This document shows, piece by piece, positions 29,834-38,488 of a stretch of 39,822 bases of DNA. The notes under the pieces are model-generated. The model made no database searches. It was given only the letters and a program-made list of their open reading frames with translations, and had not been told where the DNA came from. The position numbers and the translations under genes were made by a program. How positions within the stretch are numbered: position 1 is the first letter of the stretch; the number at the start of each line of letters is the position of its first letter. Source of the DNA: Candidatus Zapsychrus exili (lineage in GTDB: Bacteria > Omnitrophota > Gorgyraeia > Zapsychrales > Zapsychraceae); contig JAVCCJ010000057.1 in NCBI GenBank assembly GCA_030765585.1, positions 1 through 39,822 on the forward strand, read 5' to 3'.

Positions 29834-30022
29834 TTATTTTTGCTTCCTTTTCGTACTCCTCAAACCTTTTCTAGAATTATATTTTAAGCAATCTTTTAAA
29901 TCATATGGATTCCCTGGTGCTTGAGATTTAGTAAAAATACATATAGGACAATTGTGTTCACCACAAGGACCAATAGGGACAAAACTTGCTTTCTTTTTAT
30001 TTTTCTGCGAATCTTGGTTCAT
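29834..30022 (-). CDS. Small basic protein with four Cys, function unknown
   Basis: A 62-aa protein I do not recognise. Cys20, Cys25, Cys28 and Cys45 are in PCGEHNCPICIFTKSQ and LKDCLKY, a spacing that could bind Zn or an Fe-S cluster. Both ends are Lys/Arg/Gln-rich. A good ribosome site (AAGGAG) precedes the ATG. It is the last gene of the metal-sulfur cassette on the same strand, about 90 bases after the CoA-binding gene, and may work with it. Real coding is supported by the ribosome site and the ordered Cys pattern. Confidence 0.6.
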   Translation of the reverse strand: MNQDSQKNKKKASFVPIGPCGEHNCPICIFTKSQAPGNPYDLKDCLKYNSRKGLRSTKRKQK

Positions 30023-30115: not shown

Positions 30116-30475
30116 TTAAAACTGACCTGTTTTTAACATAACTAGGGTACAGGCATTAACTGTTTCAATGCCCTCTTCTTTCGCCTTATTCTCTAAATTA
30201 AAATTTTCCGCTCCGGGATTAAAAATAATCCTTTTAGGTTTCTTGGCAATAAGATCATCTCGAATCAAATTTGATATAGCAGCGTTAACATACAAAGTGA
30301 CTATATCAATGGACTCCGCAATTTCTTTAATTGAATCATAGACTTTAATTCCTTCAATATCCTTAATTTTCTTATGAATAGGATAAACCTCATGCCCCTT
30401 TTCTTTTAAAAACATCACGGCTTTATAAGAATAGCGATGTACTTTGTTTGATGCTCCCACAACTACTACTTTCAT
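30116..30475 (-). CDS. CoA-binding domain protein (YccU-like)
   Basis: A 119-aa single Rossmann-type CoA-binding domain (CoA_binding_2). VVVGASNKVHRYSYKAVMFLKEKGHEVYPIHKK (residues 3-35) is the nucleotide-binding start, and FNPGAEN and CTLVML near the C-terminus are family motifs. Family members bind CoA but have no established reaction; in other genomes they can regulate or assist acyl-CoA metabolism. It follows the BioB fusion by 13 bases, in the same unit. A link to biotin or pimeloyl-type thioesters is possible but speculative. Confidence 0.85.
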   Translation of the reverse strand: MKVVVVGASNKVHRYSYKAVMFLKEKGHEVYPIHKKIKDIEGIKVYDSIKEIAESIDIVTLYVNAAISNLIRDDLIAKKPKRIIFNPGAENFNLENKAKEEGIETVNACTLVMLKTGQF

Positions 30476-30488
30476 TTTTAAAACCCCT

Positions 30489-31895
30489 TTATCTTTTTAA
30501 CCAATAATCGGCAATAGATTTATAAAGCGTGCTTACAGCCAATATCGCACAATGGCAATGATCTTTTGGCAAATATCTTAATTCCTTAATAATTTTTCCT
30601 GGCGATATTTGCAAAACTTCTTGGATAGTCTTACCAAATGCTAAATGAGACGTCATTGTCCCACAGGCATATGTAAAAAAACAACCTCTTGTATAAAACT
30701 TAATGTCCTTAATGACATCTTCATTAATTGTAAGATAAAATTCCATTTCGTCTCCGCAAGGTCCTTTAATATGCGCTGACCCGTCTGGGTCATTCATTCT
30801 TCCAATATATTTCTTTTGAGTTATAGATCTTATAATGTGTTGAGGTATTTCATTATTATTTTGTGCTCTAACTGTCTGCAAATGCTTTTCTTTTTCAATC
30901 AACTCGTCTAACGAAAAATCAGAAACTATAGAGAATCCTGCATTTTTAATCATTTTATACGTTTCTAATCTAGACTCTCCTCTCGTATTTAAATACCCAT
31001 TAATGAATAATGAATTCGCTGGATAAAGTGCCAAAGACTGCATTTCTTTTAAATAAACTTCTCGACCTGCGGCTAAACGTATTTCCGAGTCAGGATTCAT
31101 CAATCTAAACAGACAAAGCACTCTTAAGCAATATTCAGGAGATAAGTCTAATTTTACTTCTAAAGACACTCCTTTGTTAGGTAAATAAAAATTAATAGGA
31201 ATAGACTCAACCTTTAACTTTCTTGTAGAACAGACCATATCATAAATATCATCTGCCGTTTCTCCCATACCAATAATAACGCCAGAACATACGTGTAAAT
31301 TTGCATTATGAGCTTCTTTTAAAGTTTTAACTCTATCTTCATAATTATGCGTACTACAAATATCAGAATAATAACGACTTGAAGTATTTAAATTATGATT
31401 CAATCTATCAAGCCCTGCTTCTTTTAAAATTTGAGCTTTTTCTTTATCCAAAAAACCATGAGAAACGCAAACCTGAATAGAATAAGTTGACTTAATTCTT
31501 TGAATCAATTCAGCTAAATAACGTGCCCGCTCTAACGACATTGAACGTCCGGAGAAAACCATACAATATCTATGCGCTCCACCTTCATAGGCCTGCTTAG
31601 CTTCAGCCATAATTTGTTCATCAGACTTCATGGAATATTCATTTATTTGAGTATCCGCCTCTGCTGATTGAACACAATATTTGCAATCTTCTGTGCACTG
31701 TCCATTTTGCACATTATTAATAACATGAATAGTTACTTCTCTACCAAAATATTTCTTACGAACCTCATAAGCCGTATTAAGCAATGGCAACAATTCAATC
31801 TCCTTAGAAGATAAGATAACATGAGCGTCTTTCCTTGATAAAGGCTCATTTAACAATCTCTGTTCTATTAAGTGAGAGTAAAATTCATTATTCAT
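30489..31895 (-). CDS. bioB: Biotin synthase fused to an IscU/NifU-N-type Fe-S scaffold domain
   Basis: A 468-aa protein; ordinary BioB is about 320-350 aa. Residues 1-345 form a BioB-like radical SAM domain: CTEDCKYC (Cys67, 71, 74) binds the SAM cluster. Cys111, Cys143 and Cys203, plus Arg273 in IRLAAGRE, match the auxiliary cluster ligands of E. coli BioB (Cys97, 128, 188, Arg260). Residues about 365-468 match IscU/NifU-N. GPCGDEM (Cys380, Asp382), YTRGCFF (Cys405) and HCHCAIL (His448, Cys449) correspond to IscU Cys37, Asp39, Cys63, His105 and Cys106. The scaffold could rebuild the auxiliary [2Fe-2S] cluster that BioB uses up as sulfur source. No other biotin genes are near. A DsrE-like gene lies one base upstream. 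Confidence 0.9.
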   Translation of the reverse strand: MNNEFYSHLIEQRLLNEPLSRKDAHVILSSKEIELLPLLNTAYEVRKKYFGREVTIHVINNVQNGQCTEDCKYCVQSAEADTQINEYSMKSDEQIMAEAKQAYEGGAHRYCMVFSGRSMSLERARYLAELIQRIKSTYSIQVCVSHGFLDKEKAQILKEAGLDRLNHNLNTSSRYYSDICSTHNYEDRVKTLKEAHNANLHVCSGVIIGMGETADDIYDMVCSTRKLKVESIPINFYLPNKGVSLEVKLDLSPEYCLRVLCLFRLMNPDSEIRLAAGREVYLKEMQSLALYPANSLFINGYLNTRGESRLETYKMIKNAGFSIVSDFSLDELIEKEKHLQTVRAQNNNEIPQHIIRSITQKKYIGRMNDPDGSAHIKGPCGDEMEFYLTINEDVIKDIKFYTRGCFFTYACGTMTSHLAFGKTIQEVLQISPGKIIKELRYLPKDHCHCAILAVSTLYKSIADYWLKR

Positions 31896-31896
31896 A

Positions 31897-32295
31897 TTAA
31901 AATGTCACCAGTTTATCGCTTTCTTTAGTAATATCATACATATCCTTCATCGTTGAAATTGGGCACATTTCCGTTTCAGCTATATTTCTAGTTGCCCTCA
32001 CGGGAATTAGGGCATCTTCTGGCCCTGACTGGGTGGAAGCCCTGATTTCAGATTCTTCCTGTTCGCGAGATTTAATACAGCTACCACAAGCAAGAATCGC
32101 TCCCCCATCTTTCATAAATTTCTCTGCCTGTTGAACCGTATTAAACTTATCTGTACTTATTTTTTGATATTCAACACCTTTGCCCATAAAAAAAATTTTT
32201 ACCTCATCTTTTTGAGATAGGCAAAAATTCGCATAACGAAGAGCATTCCAGCTTGTTTCAACATCATTGCTTGAAATCACAACTCCTATTTTCAT
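31897..32295 (-). CDS. DsrE-family sulfur-relay protein with an in-frame repeat insertion
   Basis: A 132-aa DsrE/DsrF-like protein. The N-terminal MKIGVVISSNDVETSWNALR and FFMGKGVEYQ fit the family, and ILACGSCIKSR carries the likely active Cys (Cys70, Cys73), with CPISTMKDMY (Cys111) following. Residues about 83-106 are an extra 24 aa encoded by a 72-bp insertion with a TTTCAG direct repeat at its edges (31974-31979 and 32046-32051). Without it the protein would be 108 aa, the normal size. It sits directly before the BioB-IscU gene (1-base gap), so persulfide transfer to that protein is plausible but inferred. GGAG precedes the ATG. Confidence 0.85.
   Translation of the reverse strand: MKIGVVISSNDVETSWNALRYANFCLSQKDEVKIFFMGKGVEYQKISTDKFNTVQQAEKFMKDGGAILACGSCIKSREQEESEIRASTQSGPEDALIPVRATRNIAETEMCPISTMKDMYDITKESDKLVTF
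31974..32051. mobile_element. 72-bp palindromic element inserted in frame in the DsrE-like gene
   Basis: The stretch between two TTTCAG copies is 72 bases (24 codons), is about half G+C in an AT-rich gene, and holds several AGGGC/GCCCT inverted pairs. It adds a segment reading ALIPVRATRN to the protein and keeps the frame. This fits a short palindromic repeat inserted with a 6-base target duplication. Confidence 0.65.
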
Positions 32296-32318: not shown

Positions 32319-33032
32319 TTATACAGTTATTACTTGCCCTGCTTTCATATCAAGAAAATTATCTCTATACTTTTCCTTAAAAATATTTTCTGCATCTATT
32401 CCGCTACAATGAGTTGCGCCTACCTTGTTGACTTTTAATTTTACAAATTCTTCAACAATCTGCTTAATTTCTTTATTTGAATGATTCTTCAAATGAAATC
32501 CTCCCAAAACAGCATAAAATTTCTTGATGCTTAACTGCGACTTAACTTTTTCAAGTATTTTAATAATCCCAGGATGAGCACAACCAGTAATAACTGAAAA
32601 TCCTTTTTCTGTCTTAACAATTAAAGATTGTTCTGATATGTTTTTGCCTTTATAGGTTCCAACAATCTCTCCGCTAGAATAAACCCCTATATTAACTCGC
32701 ATAAAATGAGTAACTTCTTTTAATTTTGCTGAAGACTCTAATATTTTGCGCTTAAAAACAGATCCAAATCCAGAAGATGAAAAAACATTTATATCTGAAG
32801 TTTTTGCAAGGATATCCCATAATCCACCTGGATGATCCCAATGATCATGTGAAATTACAATATCTTCAATAAGTGAAATATCGATTTCTAATTTATTAAT
32901 ATTATTCAGCAAATAATCACCTTTCCCTCCTGTATCAAATATAATTCGATTATCAATTAAAAATGACAATCCCCAACCAGCAGATAAATCTTTTCGTATA
33001 CTTTCACTATTAAATAATACCTTAACATCCAT
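32319..33032 (-). CDS. Metallo-beta-lactamase-fold protein (MptA/RFA-P synthase-like group)
   Basis: A 237-aa MBL-fold hydrolase. The metal motif is HDHWDH (residues 62-67), followed by GCAHPG and ATHCSG for the later ligands. The overall pattern (FDTGGKGDYLLNNI, VLGGFHL) matches the archaeal-type MBL group often annotated as 7,8-dihydropterin-6-methyl-4-(ribofuranosyl)aminobenzene phosphate synthase. That annotation rarely reflects proven function. It is the gene between the interrupted def copy and the DsrE-like gene in the cassette. In an anaerobe it could be a hydrolase or redox-linked enzyme; the substrate is unknown. Confidence 0.82.
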   Translation of the reverse strand: MDVKVLFNSESIRKDLSAGWGLSFLIDNRIIFDTGGKGDYLLNNINKLEIDISLIEDIVISHDHWDHPGGLWDILAKTSDINVFSSSGFGSVFKRKILESSAKLKEVTHFMRVNIGVYSSGEIVGTYKGKNISEQSLIVKTEKGFSVITGCAHPGIIKILEKVKSQLSIKKFYAVLGGFHLKNHSNKEIKQIVEEFVKLKVNKVGATHCSGIDAENIFKEKYRDNFLDMKAGQVITV

Positions 33033-33058: not shown

Positions 33059-33514
33059 TTATATAATATTCTCAATAATATTAGAATGATCTATTATTAA
33101 CTTACCATTTAAATGATCCACTTCATGCTGAATTACTTTTGCCAATAAACCGTTAGTCTTTAATTCAATTTTTTCATTGTTTTCATCAAACCCGATAACA
33201 ACTATTTCAAACGGTCGCTCAACCTCAACTTCTATACCCGGAAGACTCAAACATCTTTCTTTCATCTTATCAATATATTTTTTATTAATAATTTCTGGGT
33301 TAGCTATCTTCATTGCGCCTTCTCCAATGTCTGCAACAATTAATTGCTTAAGAATCCCTACCTAAGGAGCGACTAGCCCAATGCCTTTACAATGATGCAT
33401 TGTAGAAACCATATCATTTAAGATTTTTACATCATCCGTAGTTACTTTTTCTAATGGCATACATTTCTGTTCTAAAACTTTATCTGGAAATATTCTGATA
33501 TCAAATAAACTCAT
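33059..33514 (-). pseudogene. Second peptide deformylase, TAG at the catalytic Gln codon
   Basis: One frame from ATG at 33514 to the stop at 33059 encodes a deformylase of 150 codons, broken only by TAG at 33364-33362 (codon 51). The first motif reads GIGLVAP then the stop then VG, so TAG replaces the Gln of GxGLAAxQ. Motif 2 is ERCLSLPG (normally EGCLS) with the Cys ligand, and motif 3 is HEVDHLNGK with both His and Glu. The remaining 100 codons are free of stops. The part after the stop could start at an internal ATG (33313) as an 84-aa fragment. The gene starts 2 bases after the DUF89 gene. The gene may be recently inactivated, misread, or suppressed; see findings. Confidence 0.8.
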
Positions 33515-33516
33515 AT

Positions 33517-34377
33517 CTAAACCCTTTTTAAAACAATATCACCTAATTCTACCCCAGCATATTTAGCAATTACTGGACACTTTGCCCTAAATAAAAAATA
33601 TATATTTTCTTTCTCTTGACTCAATGCCTCATAATTTCCCTGCCCCTTGCTAATAATCAAATCTGCATCTTTATAAACTTTCAAGAATTCTTTAGAACAA
33701 TATTTTAAAACTGTTCCAGGAGCATCAACTCCACTTGACATAATTTTAGTTCTTTTATCAAGCCCGCATTCTTGAGCATCCTCAATAAGAGCATCGTTGA
33801 GAACCGGCTTATCCCTTACAGCAAGAATAATAGCTTTATCTTCAGGAATTTCTTCTATAAAAACCCTGTCAAAAACAATTTCACCAGCATTGTCTGCTAA
33901 ATATAAAATTTTCTTAGCATCCTTTAATTCATATTTAAACTTCTCATAATCAAAAATAGTTTTGTTAATATGAGCAAAATCGTTTGTAAATAATTTTTCA
34001 AGTTCCTCTTCAATATTCAAACTATTATTAGCCGCATAATCAATAACATTACCTGCAATAGCAATTTCAACTGCCGTTAAAAGTTTTTCCTCAGAAGACC
34101 AAACTTCTTCTTTAAGTCTTGGGTACAAAGCTAGCGCCTTACGATTACTCTCTTTTTTAATACTTTTATAGATATCTTTATTCCCGTATCTTCTCTCCAT
34201 AACTTTATGAATTATGCGAGACATTTCAGGAGGCGAACATTCTAATGAAATCTTTGGAATAATCTGAGAAATCTCATTAAGTATCTCTTTATGAATAATT
34301 TCATTGTCGTCAACAAGCCGTGCCATTTCAAGCGCACTTTTTATAAAACAAGGTATACAATCTAAATACGTTCTCAT
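33517..34377 (-). CDS. DUF89 (ARMT1/AF1104-like) family protein
   Basis: A protein of about 286 aa of the DUF89 family, metal-dependent phosphatases acting on damaged phosphometabolites in characterised members. The prokaryotic type has an N-terminal CxxC (Cys7, Cys10 in MRTYLDCIPCF), and the catalytic region includes LADNAGEIVFD (the DN/AGE metal motif), VRDKPVLND and SKGQGNYEAL. The ATG at 34377 overlaps the upstream ATPase stop in an ATGA; the longer frame to 34392 is less likely. Its presence between two ferredoxin ATPases and the deformylase copy suggests a linked metabolic repair role, but no substrate is known. Confidence 0.83.
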   Translation of the reverse strand: MRTYLDCIPCFIKSALEMARLVDDNEIIHKEILNEISQIIPKISLECSPPEMSRIIHKVMERRYGNKDIYKSIKKESNRKALALYPRLKEEVWSSEEKLLTAVEIAIAGNVIDYAANNSLNIEEELEKLFTNDFAHINKTIFDYEKFKYELKDAKKILYLADNAGEIVFDRVFIEEIPEDKAIILAVRDKPVLNDALIEDAQECGLDKRTKIMSSGVDAPGTVLKYCSKEFLKVYKDADLIISKGQGNYEALSQEKENIYFLFRAKCPVIAKYAGVELGDIVLKRV

Positions 34378-35222
34378 AATAATTCTTTCCAAATATTATT
34401 TATTAATCCATCATACTTGCCGTTTGCATGTTCTAATATTGTCTTGCCTTGTACCATTGCTTCTACAACCGTCTTATCAAAAGGGATTTTGCCTACAACA
34501 GAAATATTGTTTTCTGCACAATATTTTTCAATTTGTTCAGTCATCCCTAAATTTAAAGTATATTTATTAACAACAAGCTTAACTGGAACTTTAAAATGTT
34601 GAGCAACTTCAATAACACGTTTCGCATCATGTAACCCAGATAAGGTTGGCTCAGTAACAACCAAAGTGCAACTAACCCCCGACAAAGAAGCAATAACTGG
34701 ACATCCAATTCCTGGCGGACCATCAATTATTACATATTCACAATTTTGTTTTTCTGCTAATTCCTTAGCTTGTTGTCTGACAAGCGAAACTAACTTCCCC
34801 GAATTCTCTTCAGCTATTCCAAGCCTCGCATGAACAAACGATCCGAACCGGGTATCAGATATATACCATTCGCCTGACTCATTTTCCTGCATCTCTATTG
34901 CTTGTGCAGGGCAAACATGACTACAAAATGAACACCCCTCACACGCAATAGGATCTACGATAAATTCATCAGAAATTGCTTTATATCGGCACAATTCAAT
35001 GCATCTTCTACATTGAGCACACTTATCTTTATCAATAACCGCAGTCTTTCCGCTTCTAAACTCATTTTTCTCTTTTACTGTAGGAGACAATAAAAGATGT
35101 AGATCTGCTGCGTCAACATCACAATCAACCATCACTTTATTCTTTACCAAAGCGGCAAACGCACCAGTTAAAATGGTCTTTCCTGTTCCACCTTTTCCAC
35201 TAATAATTAAAATTTGTTTCAT
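34374..35222 (-). CDS. MinD/Mrp-type ATPase with inserted ferredoxin domain (copy 2)
   Basis: A 282-aa P-loop ATPase. The deviant Walker A is SGKGGTGKT (residues 8-16), the switch region has VDCDVDAAD, and IDGPPGIGCPV is the later ATPase motif. A two-cluster ferredoxin insert lies between the two: Cys68, 71, 74, 78 (CAQCRRCIELC) and Cys94, 97, 100, 104 (CEGCSFCSHVC). This is the MinD-superfamily type with an inserted ferredoxin seen in archaea and anaerobes, including the Orp ATPases of Desulfovibrio. It overlaps the upstream copy by four bases (ATGA). Role: likely ATP-driven handling of an Fe-S or mixed metal cluster. Confidence 0.9.
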   Translation of the reverse strand: MKQILIISGKGGTGKTILTGAFAALVKNKVMVDCDVDAADLHLLLSPTVKEKNEFRSGKTAVIDKDKCAQCRRCIELCRYKAISDEFIVDPIACEGCSFCSHVCPAQAIEMQENESGEWYISDTRFGSFVHARLGIAEENSGKLVSLVRQQAKELAEKQNCEYVIIDGPPGIGCPVIASLSGVSCTLVVTEPTLSGLHDAKRVIEVAQHFKVPVKLVVNKYTLNLGMTEQIEKYCAENNISVVGKIPFDKTVVEAMVQGKTILEHANGKYDGLINNIWKELL

Positions 35223-36079
35223 GTTTTTACCTGAACTTGCTTTTTAATTTCATCAAAAAGACTTATAAACTTAGTTTTATACTCTGGAAATAATTCAACT
35301 ATAGACTCTCCCTTTGAATAACTTTTGGCAATCTCTTCGCTAAAAGGAATCTTCATTAATACTGGAATATTTTCTTCATTGCAATAATTCTCAGTTTTAT
35401 CATCGCCTAAATCACATCGATTTATCACAACACCAAAAAGAATATCTAATTTACGCATAGCTTCAACTGCTAATTGAAGATCATTTAGACCAAATGGTGT
35501 TGGCTCTGTCACAAGAACACAAAAGTCAGTTCCTCCAACAGCAGTAATAACGGGGCATGATGTCCCTGGCGGCACGTCAATAATAACCGTTCTTGTTGGA
35601 TTAATGTGCTGTTTAACTTGACGTATAACTGGCGGAGCCATTGCCTCACCGATATTTAATTTTCCATGAACAAATTGAATATTATCTTTTTCACCAAACT
35701 CTATAATGCCAATTTCCCTATTCATTTCTGTAATAGCGCCCTGTGGACACAAATACTGACACGCTCCGCATCCGTGACAAAAATTAGGAAAAAGCAAAAT
35801 ATTACCTTTACTTTTGTCTGTTTGAGGAATTACGGCAATAGCATTATATTCACATACCTCACGACATTTACCGCAATATGTACATTTTTCTTTATCGATA
35901 ACAGGGACTGGAATAAATGCATTCTTTTTCTCAACTATGACAGGGTTTAAAAACAAAGCAGCATTAGGTTCCTCAACATCGCAGTCCATCAGCTGAACAT
36001 TACTTAATGACAAAGCTAAGTTTACAGCTATAGTTGTTTTTCCTGTTCCACCTTTTCCGCTAGCTACAGAAAGTATCAT
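35219..36079 (-). CDS. MinD/Mrp-type ATPase with inserted ferredoxin domain (copy 1)
   Basis: A 286-aa paralogue of the neighbouring copy. Walker A is SGKGGTGKTT (residues 7-16), the switch segment is MDCDVEEPNA, and IDVPPGTSCPV follows the insert. The ferredoxin insert has Cys66, 69, 72, 76 (CTYCGKCREVC) and Cys101, 104, 107, 111 (CHGCGACQYLC), enough for two [4Fe-4S] clusters. The two copies are adjacent and coupled, so they may form a heterodimer, as proposed for Orp3/Orp4-like pairs. They stand directly after a methyltransferase and two NifX-like proteins. Confidence 0.9.
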   Translation of the reverse strand: MILSVASGKGGTGKTTIAVNLALSLSNVQLMDCDVEEPNAALFLNPVIVEKKNAFIPVPVIDKEKCTYCGKCREVCEYNAIAVIPQTDKSKGNILLFPNFCHGCGACQYLCPQGAITEMNREIGIIEFGEKDNIQFVHGKLNIGEAMAPPVIRQVKQHINPTRTVIIDVPPGTSCPVITAVGGTDFCVLVTEPTPFGLNDLQLAVEAMRKLDILFGVVINRCDLGDDKTENYCNEENIPVLMKIPFSEEIAKSYSKGESIVELFPEYKTKFISLFDEIKKQVQVKT

Positions 36080-36091
36080 TATCTAATTACC

Positions 36092-36694
36092 TCATTTACG
36101 TATTATTATTAATTCCTGACACTTTGAACTAAATTTCTCTACTTGATATCCCTTGACCGTTATATACTCCACTACCTCATTTAGAGTACAATGACCTGAG
36201 CTGTGATCTCTTCCTTCACTTTTGTGCAACTCCTTAATAATTTTAAAACCCTCTTTATTAAAATCGCTTATAACAATCTTTCCATTTAAAGCAATAACTC
36301 TTAAGAATTCATCAATAACTTTTAGCGGTTGACTTAAATGATGAATTAAATTAATGCCAAAAGAAACATCGAAACTGGCATCAGCAAAGTGTAAATGTTG
36401 AGCATCAGCAACAACAAAGTTTACTTTATCTAATAATCCCAAATACTGAATATTCATTTTGGCAAACTTTTGCTCCTCTTCAGATATATCTACTGTAGTA
36501 AATTGATATCCACTTTTCACTAAAGCAACTGCAAAATGCCCCTTTCCAGTGCCAAGTTCTAGTATTCTTCCTTCAATCGGTTGAACATTTTTAATTATAA
36601 AATATCTTTCCTCATCAATATCATATCCAAAACTTTTAAATAATTTTATTCTGGCACAATACTGTTGATGGTTTTCTAAAATGTTTTTATCCAT
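36092..36694 (-). CDS. SAM-dependent class I methyltransferase
   Basis: A 200-aa class I methyltransferase. ILELGTGKGHFAVAL (motif I) and TTVDIS (motif II) bind SAM, VADAQHLHFADASFDVSFGINLIHHL is motif III/IV-like, and the rest completes a Rossmann fold. The substrate is unknown; UbiE-like and Cys-protein methyltransferases look similar. Start codons at 36697 and 36694 are adjacent; the second has a better-spaced GAGG. It lies between the NifX-like genes and the ferredoxin ATPases. Similar methyltransferases accompany NifX/MTH1175-like genes in anaerobes. Confidence 0.85.
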   Translation of the reverse strand: MDKNILENHQQYCARIKLFKSFGYDIDEERYFIIKNVQPIEGRILELGTGKGHFAVALVKSGYQFTTVDISEEEQKFAKMNIQYLGLLDKVNFVVADAQHLHFADASFDVSFGINLIHHLSQPLKVIDEFLRVIALNGKIVISDFNKEGFKIIKELHKSEGRDHSSGHCTLNEVVEYITVKGYQVEKFSSKCQELIIIRK

Positions 36695-36769
36695 CATTAC
36701 CTCGTAATTATTAAACCAAATTTTAAATAATTAATCACATCGCGCAAAATTTATTGCCCATAAGATGCT

Positions 36770-37135
36770 CTAAATTAAACCTGATTTTTCTTCAGCATTT
36801 GGACCCTTTGTTGATTTAAACTCCCCGTTATTAAAACTATCTAAGGCTTCTTTAACAGTTCCTCGAACATCAAGGATAACTTCAATCCCTGCTGATTCTA
36901 AAGTCTGAGATGCATTAGGCCCAACTTTTCCAGTAAGTAGAGTTTTTATTTGTTTTTCAGCCACAAGTTGTCCTGACTGAACACCAACGCCTCCCATACC
37001 ATTCACATTTTGATTTTGAACTGCTTCAAATTGAGAAGTATCAGTATCAACAAAAATAAAATACTGACAACGACCAAAACGCTGATCCACCTTAGAATCT
37101 AAATTATTTCCTTCAGATGTTATACAGATATTCAT
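36770..37135 (-). CDS. NifX/MTH1175-like (dinitrogenase Fe-Mo cofactor family) protein, copy 2
   Basis: A 121-aa single-domain protein of the NifX/NifB-C/VnfX family (COG1433). MNICITSEGNNLDSKVDQRFGRCQYFIFVD is the typical opening, and GGVGVQSGQ and TGKVGPNASQ match the ribonuclease H-like fold that binds metal-sulfur clusters. No nitrogenase genes are in the window, so it should not be read as nitrogen fixation. The Desulfovibrio orange protein (ORP), a Mo/Cu-sulfur cluster protein, belongs to this family. It overlaps copy 1 by four bases (ATGA). Confidence 0.9.
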   Translation of the reverse strand: MNICITSEGNNLDSKVDQRFGRCQYFIFVDTDTSQFEAVQNQNVNGMGGVGVQSGQLVAEKQIKTLLTGKVGPNASQTLESAGIEVILDVRGTVKEALDSFNNGEFKSTKGPNAEEKSGLI

Positions 37136-37545
37136 TTTTCACCTCCATCATGTTCGCAAACCTCTTCATTTGGATGATCGCAAACTGTTTTATCCAAACC
37201 ATAGCCTTTGCCACCGCCTGGCTTACAAAAACTTTCTCCACCTTTTAAAGTCCCTTCTTCTAACTTCCTTATAACATCACTTATTTTTCCTTCTATACCA
37301 ACAATAGTTTCCATTCCGTATTCTTGAAAAAATCCGGTAGCGCGCATCCCCATGCCCCCAGTAATGATGCATTGTGCGCCTTTTTCGTTTAAAAATCCTG
37401 GAATAAGTCCTGGCTGATGTCCTGGGTTTTCAATGATATCTTGTTTTATTACTTTTCCATCTTCAATATCAACAATCGTAAAGGATGGACATCTACCAAA
37501 ATGAGCAGATACATAGTCATTGTCTGTTGAAATAGCAACTTTCAA
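37132..37545 (-). CDS. NifX/MTH1175-like protein with Cys/His tail, copy 1
   Basis: A 137-aa member of the same family as its neighbour: MKVAISTDNDYVSAHFGRCPSFTIVDIEDG, GHQPGLIPGFLNEKGAQCIITGGMGMRA. The C-terminal 33 residues add a Gly-rich stretch and CDHPNEEVCEHD, which could bind metal. It starts with TTG at 37545 behind GGAGG six bases upstream. A 13-bp perfect hairpin (37568-37604) precedes it. As a pair the two proteins could carry or hand over a cluster to the ferredoxin ATPases. Confidence 0.88.
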   Translation of the reverse strand: MKVAISTDNDYVSAHFGRCPSFTIVDIEDGKVIKQDIIENPGHQPGLIPGFLNEKGAQCIITGGMGMRATGFFQEYGMETIVGIEGKISDVIRKLEEGTLKGGESFCKPGGGKGYGLDKTVCDHPNEEVCEHDGGEK

Positions 37546-37629: not shown

Positions 37630-37959
37630 TTAAGCTACAGAAGAATCATTAGGTTCTAACTCTTTAATCCTAGCGTTAATTATTTTAATCTCATTCTGCA
37701 TTGAAGAAGATTGCGTTTTTAACAACTTTGTTTCTTCTTGCGATGAGAGCGTAGGACTATAAATATTAGAATTTATCCAACGAAACCCCATGCCACACCC
37801 AATACCTCTTCGGAAACCTCTACTGCCACTACCTCTGGCAACGCTCCGACCTGATAAAATATTAGAATAACCTGCCGCTGAAAATCCAGAGCAATATCCT
37901 GCCCTACGACCTGTAATTGAACCCATTCCTATAGGCCCAGTTCTATCTCCACCTGGCAT
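37630..37959 (-). CDS. DUF5320-family small protein
   Basis: A 109-aa protein of the DUF5320 type. The N-terminal MPGGDRTGPIGMGSITGRRAGYCSGF is the family hallmark, a Gly/Arg-rich stretch follows, and the last 40 residues form a coiled coil (SSQEETKLLKTQSSSMQNEIKIINARIKEL). Family members usually lie beside MTH1175-like and ferredoxin-ATPase genes; function unknown. The ATG at 37959 has an excellent GGAGG ribosome site. The open frame continues up to 38049 but that part overlaps fur and a Fur box. It is the first gene downstream of fur. Confidence 0.82.
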   Translation of the reverse strand: MPGGDRTGPIGMGSITGRRAGYCSGFSAAGYSNILSGRSVARGSGSRGFRRGIGCGMGFRWINSNIYSPTLSSQEETKLLKTQSSSMQNEIKIINARIKELEPNDSSVA

Positions 37960-37985
37960 TTCGCACCTCCTTTCCTTAATGTTAA

Positions 37986-38000
37986 TGACAACCATTATCA
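37986..38000 (-). promoter_or_regulatory. Fur-box-like operator before DUF5320 and the metal-sulfur genes
   Basis: The 15 bases TGACAACCATTATCA fit the 7-1-7 Fur pattern TGATAATNATTATCA with two mismatches, in a longer palindrome TTAATGA...TCATTAA. It lies about 27 bases before the DUF5320 start and just after the fur stop, so the downstream genes may have their own iron-regulated promoter. Confidence 0.6.
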
Positions 38001-38017
38001 TTAAATAATAAAAAAAT

Positions 38018-38488
38018 TTATTTTGTACTACATTTTTTGCAAATACCAAAAAACTGAATTAAATGGTCCGTAATGTTAAACTCATACTTTTTAGATAATC
38101 CATCTTCCGTATTTTTTAAGAACTTAACTTCATCTTTCATAAAATCAGAATAATCAATAACCTTATAACACTTTTTGCAAACTAAATGATGATGATGGCC
38201 CTTTCCACTATAATTGTCAGAAAGCTCATATTTAGATCTTCCCTCTCCAAAGTCAAACTTGACGACCATTCCCATATTTACAAGCATTTCTAAATTTCTA
38301 TATACGGTAGTCAATCCAATATTTGGATAAAATTTATGCACAGCCAAATAAATATCTTCGGCGCTTAAATGCTCCTGTGTATTTCCAAGAACATCAAGTA
38401 TCGCTTCTCTCGGCTTTGTCATTCGATAGCCACAACACTTAAATTTTCCGTGCATCCATCGTGGTCCTGCTCCATCCTTGTTTGGCAT
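38018..38488 (-). CDS. fur: Fur-family metal-dependent repressor
   Basis: A 156-aa Fur-family regulator. The winged-helix DNA-binding domain (about residues 20-95) includes LSAEDIYLAVHKFYPNIGLTTVYRNLEML. The metal and dimer region has GHHHHLVCKKC (His98-101, Cys104, Cys107) and a second CxxC (Cys150, Cys153) for structural zinc. Sequence cannot fully separate Fur from PerR or Zur, but the operator at its own promoter (38501-38515) fits the Fur consensus best. AGGAG precedes the ATG. It heads the metal-sulfur cassette, pointing to iron control of these genes. Confidence 0.93.
   Translation of the reverse strand: MPNKDGAGPRWMHGKFKCCGYRMTKPREAILDVLGNTQEHLSAEDIYLAVHKFYPNIGLTTVYRNLEMLVNMGMVVKFDFGEGRSKYELSDNYSGKGHHHHLVCKKCYKVIDYSDFMKDEVKFLKNTEDGLSKKYEFNITDHLIQFFGICKKCSTK

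Follow-up and report, generated by a model that had tools for sequence, protein, structure and literature searches.

It has long been asked how biotin synthase (BioB) recovers the sulfur that it burns from its own cluster, and in some studies the purified enzyme has been reported at less than one turnover per monomer. A gene of Candidatus Zapsychrus exili gives this question a concrete form, as the original prediction for it was a BioB fused to its own Fe-S scaffold, which would repair the cluster in place. The gene lies in a stretch of 39,822 nucleotides (the window), which is contig C53 of the source genome (G000; 2.04 Mb, 129 contigs), whose close relatives are Candidatus Omnitrophota MAGs. 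It is a single, uninterrupted ATG-to-stop reading frame of 468 aa (30489-31895, minus strand). Pfam places Radical_SAM at residues 66-220, BATS at 233-321 and NifU_N at 354-467, all well over their cut-offs, and the predicted architecture of a BioB followed by an IscU/NifU-N domain is thus borne out by the reading frame, Pfam and NCBIfam. The BioB domain (radical SAM plus BATS) spans residues 1 to ~325 (30921..31895, minus), as assigned by TIGR00433, PF04055, PF06968 and Foldseek, and the IscU/NifU_N-like scaffold domain spans residues ~349-468 (30492..30851, minus), as assigned by PF01592, an alignment with 62 relatives, a tree and Foldseek. In the AF2 model, both domains are well folded (mean pLDDT 91.8), with a pTM of 0.74 that is too low to fix their mutual placement; another run gave a pTM of 0.61, again with good domains. 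Across the junction (residues 326-348; 30852..30920, minus), the C-terminal helix of BioB (residues 329-346) runs directly into the N-terminus of the scaffold, with a pLDDT of ~65 for residues 341-360.

The N-terminal domain matches the NCBIfam bioB equivalog TIGR00433 over its full length (residues 18-321) with 361 bits against a cut-off of 225, whereas it scores 72.7 against the HydE cut-off of 254.6 and likewise does not reach the PylB cut-off. The top Foldseek matches of this part of the model are 8vdw, 8vcw and 1r30, the biotin synthases of V. parvula, B. obeum and E. coli, respectively. The roles of the cluster ligands and substrate asparagines in E. coli BioB are established. Part of them is restated in PMC11099021. 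The original prediction held that all ligands of both clusters are present, and the alignment to E. coli BioB agrees: the motif C67-x3-C71-x2-C74 (31674..31697, minus) corresponds to the SAM-cluster cysteines C53/C57/C60, the type I auxiliary ligands C97/C128/C188/R260 are found as C111/C143/C203/R273, and the desthiobiotin-contacting asparagines N153/N222 as N168/N235. A set of 23 housekeeping BioBs of the order has 85 invariant positions; the fused domain keeps all of them, the same number as a housekeeping BioB left out of the set. By this measure, the fused domain would still be a biotin synthase, which makes the suggested alternative of a different thio-compound as product less likely.

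Close inspection of the auxiliary site revealed a mixture of ligand types. Cys180 of the fused domain occurs in all BioBs of the order and in the V. parvula and B. obeum enzymes, whose structures (8vdw and 8vcw) we take to be type II biotin synthases, and is absent from the E. coli enzyme. The position of C111, equivalent to C97 in E. coli, is Ser in 8vdw and 8vcw and Cys in the BioBs of the order. The fold, the SAM cluster and the substrate asparagines are common to the type I enzyme (1r30), the type II enzymes and the fused domain, whereas Omnitrophota BioBs, fused or free, carry the C97 equivalent of type I and the C180 of 8vdw and 8vcw together. Two order-specific cysteines, C256 and C261, are also seen in housekeeping Omnitrophota BioBs (e.g., L088:3024-4067 and L114:6577-7692). 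The C97 equivalent and C180, plus C256 and C261, possibly represent a third auxiliary-cluster arrangement in anaerobes. Because the site mixes type I and type II features, the cluster that it holds cannot be read from sequence, nor can a sacrificial [2Fe-2S] cluster with one turnover be assumed. The premise of a one-turnover enzyme is thus uncertain, as C180 is added to an otherwise E. coli-type ligand set.

The C-terminal domain matches PF01592 with 71.3 bits (gathering score 22), and in Foldseek it retrieves IscU structures with a TM of ~0.8-0.9 on the target. The scaffold Cys, Asp and His residues had been predicted to be kept, with C380, C405 and C449 as the cysteines, and this was correct: in the alignment with 62 relatives, C380, D382 and C405 are invariant and H448 and C449 nearly so. 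The domain is under the NCBIfam equivalog cut-offs for NifU_clost (78.6 vs 187.9), IscU (49.9 vs 192.4) and SufU (41.9 vs 92.5). It carries an extra cysteine, C411, as well as CGDEMEFYL where IscU has CGDVMKLQI, and the HscA-recognition motif is missing, with LPKDHCHC in place of LPPVKIHC. Its relatives are free-standing proteins of ~110-145 residues with 50-64% identity, found in Omnitrophota, WOR-1/Saganbacteria, Elusimicrobiota, Lentisphaerota, Verrucomicrobiota, Coatesbacteria and further lineages, among them the cultured species Oligosphaera ethanolica. In the tree, these proteins are set apart from IscU/NifU on a long branch with full support, and the fusion scaffolds group with the free-standing protein of G004, a genome of the same family (support 100/92). 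The genome's housekeeping NifU, paired with NifS on contig C48, shares the NifU_N fold and the three Cys, Asp and His residues with the fused domain, whereas the latter is only ~34% identical to housekeeping IscU/NifU and differs in its own clade, C411, CGDEMEFYL and the loss of LPPVK. Recruitment of the housekeeping scaffold into the fusion is ruled out by the distance between the two in the tree. Judged by motifs and phylogeny, the domain is a distinct IscU-like subfamily, and the family marked by CGDEMEFYL and C411, which is undescribed in the literature searchable here, is a core member of a widespread gene cluster resembling the ORP/MrpORP system. The scaffold is thus not BioB's own, as had been proposed: its nearest relatives are free-standing members of such clusters, mostly without BioB. 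Neither the source genome nor the second genome with a complete fusion (G017, below) has a free copy, so the fused domain presumably serves the rest of the cluster too, acting on a further target.

The fusion is not confined to one assembly. A complete copy, 73% identical over residues 1-467, was found in G017 (JAIORP010000001), and its presence there in the same gene context rules out an assembly join or frameshift in the source genome. Two genomes of a third genus carry truncated copies at contig edges, consisting of residues 1-228 beside DsrE in G018 and the last 31 residues in G001. In the BioB tree, the fused domains are united in a single clade (support 100/100) that spans three genera. 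Between the two complete copies, dN/dS is ~0.145-0.15 in the BioB domain and ~0.10 in the scaffold domain (dS ~1.2), and a single gap occurs in 468 columns, none within the junction, whose length is unchanged. Both domains are under purifying selection. The search for the architecture and its spread also showed it to be rare, with complete fusions in 2 of 81 genomes of the order and 2 of 384 of the phylum, and no further one was found in a pattern-based search of ~85,000 species genomes and the 384 phylum genomes. Several candidates were rejected. Matches in G309, G061 and G039 that apparently extend upstream are free-standing scaffolds, the middle of an 841-aa reading frame with radical SAM and NifU_N (L065) is out-of-frame GC-rich sequence, and long scaffold reading frames in L060 and L063 contain no second domain. 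No description of a BioB-NifU/IscU fusion was found in the open literature, where absence is no proof.

The neighbours of the fusion were examined, and same-strand genes were counted around 59 loci of the free-standing scaffold family. In the window, the cluster runs on the minus strand from a Fur-type regulator (38488) to the fusion, with genes mostly overlapping or closely spaced. The regulator at its head (38018..38488), named by sequence and conserved position, is present in 21 of the 59 loci and is followed by a DUF5320 protein (37630..38049; PF17253; 23 loci), NifX/ORP-type protein 1 (37132..37545; PF02579; 31), NifX/ORP-type protein 2 (36770..37135; PF02579; 37) and a SAM methyltransferase (36092..36697; NCBIfam; 25). 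The next two genes, MinD1 (35219..36079; 42 loci) and MinD2 (34374..35222; 44), encode MinD/Mrp-type ATPases with an inserted 4Fe-4S ferredoxin, ORP-complex-like by Pfam and NCBIfam. An ARMT1-like damage-control phosphatase (33517..34392; PF01937; 28), a metallo-beta-lactamase-fold protein (32319..33032; PF00753; 39) and a DsrE-like protein (31897..32295; PF02635; 7) complete the upstream part. A gap of 1 bp separates DsrE from the fusion downstream of it, and the predicted gene context, with DsrE and the ferredoxin ATPases in the same run, is confirmed. A CoA-binding (Rossmann) protein is encoded 13 bp downstream (30116..30475, minus; PF13380). A small radical SAM protein (35 loci), Mrp (20), a CoA-disulfide-reductase-like flavoprotein (17), methanogenesis marker 8 (8) and a HydG-like protein (6) were also counted. 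The ORP-like cluster is found in many anaerobic phyla, mostly without BioB.

The cluster has the pair of ferredoxin-inserted MinD ATPases and the NifX/ORP proteins of the ORP type. NifX/ORP-type protein 1 matches the C-terminal half of MrpORP (NF041136, 92.6 bits, model positions 265-360), and the Mrp half is encoded separately, on contig C15, in the source genome; an intact two-domain MrpORP is absent, and the two halves are separate genes. Mrp directly follows the fusion in G017 and the truncated copy in G001 (382 and 365 bits to MrpORP, respectively). MrpORP of Desulfovibrio has been shown to carry Fe-S clusters to the ORP complex (PMC6345978). That system and the cluster described here have ferredoxin-bearing MinD ATPases, NifX/ORP-type proteins and an Mrp/NBP35 Fe-S carrier in common. 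In contrast to Desulfovibrio, a 280-aa Mrp and a separate NifX-type protein apparently take the place of MrpORP here, and the cluster has an additional IscU-like scaffold, metallo-beta-lactamase-fold protein, ARMT1, DUF5320, Fur and, here, BioB.

Some genes around the fusion show further features. A peptide deformylase gene (33059-33540, minus) has an in-frame TAG at 33362-33364, at the glutamine position of a conserved motif (GLVAP*VGIL), and a deformylase remnant is also found upstream of the fusion in G017; this gene looks like a decaying member of the cluster. The DsrE gene contains an in-frame insertion of 78 bp (26 aa; 31969-32046, minus) that is missing from six related DsrE proteins; it is single-copy in the genome, so a repeated element was rejected. 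The G017 DsrE gene is broken into frames. Downstream of the fusion, a 62-aa Cys-containing protein without a Pfam match (29834-30022, minus) has relatives in G001 (L085), and G004 (L086) gives a partial match. Among the free-standing scaffold loci (L025-L078, L108 and L117), methanogenesis marker 8, HydG and DUF5981 are found in some genomes; the HydG of G213 (L117:10822-12315) scores 450 bits against a cut-off of 312 and lies between MinD2 and a flavoprotein within an ORP-like cluster.

No bio gene other than the fusion is present in the window's cluster, in keeping with the original prediction as far as the window goes. Genome-wide it does not hold, as a full pathway and another BioB are encoded on contigs C98 and C64. 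In one run, C98 carries BirA, BioF, a BioH-like esterase, a BioC-like methyltransferase and a BioD-BioA fusion; BioF, BioA, the BirA ligase domain and BioD are over their cut-offs, and BioC (164 vs 185) and BioH (158 vs 207) are slightly under. The separate BioB on C64 is 53% identical to the fused one. Its neighbourhood, a thioredoxin-reductase-like gene and an opposite-strand gene of ~600 aa, recurs around BioB in G001, G018, G022 and G025 and is partly conserved in G045 and G017. The full pathway and a separate, syntenic housekeeping BioB identify the fused BioB as a second copy, and the fusion thus joins a BioB paralog to a scaffold of the cluster. Housekeeping BioBs of the order are also found outside the bio operon, so pathway linkage is no strict requirement in this family.

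Unfused BioB paralogs occur within the same type of cluster in G022 and G045, with the housekeeping BioB elsewhere, so the link between BioB and the cluster takes more than one form. In G022, the cluster BioB keeps all 85 invariant positions and lies ~8 kb from an unfused scaffold. The cluster BioB of G045 (L083:8693-9649) is still over the BioB cut-off and keeps 67 of the 85 positions, with the equivalents of C97 and R260 replaced by Gly and Cys, which makes it a candidate for changed function. These losses hint that a cluster BioB can drift to another role. When the fusions and the G022 paralog are constrained to group together, the resulting tree is rejected only by a narrow margin (p-AU 0.0485); BioB may therefore have entered the cluster more than once, and separate recruitments are possible on this phylogenetic evidence.

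In the explanation that we consider best, and which we put forward tentatively, at somewhat less than an even chance, an anaerobic Fe-S delivery cluster of the ORP/MrpORP-like type took in a duplicate BioB that is still equipped for catalysis, and this BioB became fused end to end with the cluster's dedicated scaffold, which would rebuild the auxiliary cluster in place. In the proposed mechanism, the fusion would form biotin from desthiobiotin by means of its radical SAM [4Fe-4S] cluster and an auxiliary cluster that is sacrificed. On C380/D382/C405/H448/C449, the tethered scaffold would assemble a cluster with iron and sulfur from the cell, the sulfur coming from DsrE or from NifS encoded elsewhere, and the ferredoxin-MinD and Mrp ATPases would be its electron- and ATP-dependent partners. 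The cluster would then be handed to C111/C143/C203(/C180)/R273, so that the auxiliary cluster is both built and renewed on the spot. The Fur regulator probably controls the fusion, which would make it a second biotin synthase for particular conditions, alongside the housekeeping BioB, while the scaffold presumably continues to serve its neighbours. The retention of all 85 invariant positions, both desthiobiotin asparagines and all scaffold ligands speaks for capture and repair, as do the low dN/dS of both domains (0.10-0.15) with one gap, the single fusion clade in three genera, the unfused BioBs in the clusters of G022 and G045, and the Mrp carrier gene next to two of the copies. Against it stand the biotin pathway that the genome already has, with its own BioB, and the window's cluster devoid of other bio genes; the scaffold family is widespread in clusters without BioB, which implies that its primary client is something else. 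The fusion is also rare, the combination of C111 and C180 leaves the auxiliary cluster type ambiguous, the pTM of 0.74 leaves domain placement undecided, and the G045 paralog hints that cluster-linked BioBs change function.

That last observation is also the starting point for a reading in which the BioB domain acts on a target other than desthiobiotin, for example by sulfur insertion or extraction on a scaffold-borne metallocluster, like the radical SAM enzymes HydE and NifB-type in the assembly of cofactors. Redundancy with the housekeeping BioB, the cofactor-assembly-like genes of the cluster (NifX, MinD, methanogenesis marker 8 and a true HydG in G213) and the loss of auxiliary ligands and 18 of 85 invariant positions in G045 would fit such a role, but the fused domain has lost none of these positions, keeps both asparagines, and has a full BioB equivalog score while falling under the HydE and PylB cut-offs; we regard a new function as unlikely. 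Mere co-expression, with the scaffold serving the cluster's target, the BioB copy making biotin under cluster regulation and the tether mattering little, is somewhat easier to entertain, though still rather unlikely. Since G000 and G017 have the scaffold in no form other than the fusion, it must serve the cluster; the cluster is common without BioB, and in G022 the two proteins are encoded ~8 kb apart. However, BioB is an Fe-S consumer, and its joining to the scaffold rather than to another neighbour would be a pointed coincidence; the short junction has also kept its length over a dS of ~1.2. A chance fusion without maintained function, now on its way out, would agree with the erosion of neighbours (the deformylase stop and the broken DsrE of G017), but is very improbable given a dN/dS of 0.10-0.15 at that synonymous distance and ligands kept in two genera. 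An artefact of frameshift or mis-assembly is hardly credible: contig edges cut off two of the four copies, but the whole fusion is found in frame, with the same genes around it, in two assemblies that are independent of each other.

The fusion, together with the unfused BioB and scaffold of sister genomes, offers a natural test of whether BioB becomes truly catalytic when a scaffold is close by. A further lead is a conserved IscU-like family that holds a central place in a widespread anaerobic ORP-like metal-cofactor cluster, including that of Oligosphaera ethanolica. A broader proposal, which we think improbable, is that this family and the ORP/Mrp-like cluster form an undescribed anaerobic machine that makes and renews special, possibly sacrificial or heterometallic, clusters in client enzymes, and that the fusion freezes the complex for transfer between scaffold and client in a single chain, yielding a naturally multi-turnover BioB.

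In-place cluster repair remains plausible in light of two precedents. The auxiliary cluster of lipoyl synthase (LipA), sacrificed as a sulfur donor, is restored by the carrier NfuA/NFU1. The fusion would work in a similar manner, whereas LipA and its carrier are separate proteins, Nfu does not have the IscU-type fold, and the product is lipoyl rather than biotin. The closer precedent is the BsaP-dependent BioB of mycobacteria together with the natural BioB-BsaP fusion of Pseudonocardia (PMC11099021). A BioB with a cluster-supplying partner is thus a known idea; the partner family and its gene-cluster origin are undescribed in the literature searchable here. No BsaP domain was recognized in our fusion, whose C-terminal domain is NifU_N by profile and fold, a comparison that did not include the BsaP sequence itself. 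In both fusions, a biotin synthase is permanently joined to a cysteine-bearing partner thought to act at the auxiliary cluster (PMC11099021). In contrast, BsaP is a small protein reported without a known structural relative, and the partner described here is an IscU/NifU_N scaffold; BsaP-dependent BioBs are without the C128 equivalent, whereas the fused BioB has it.
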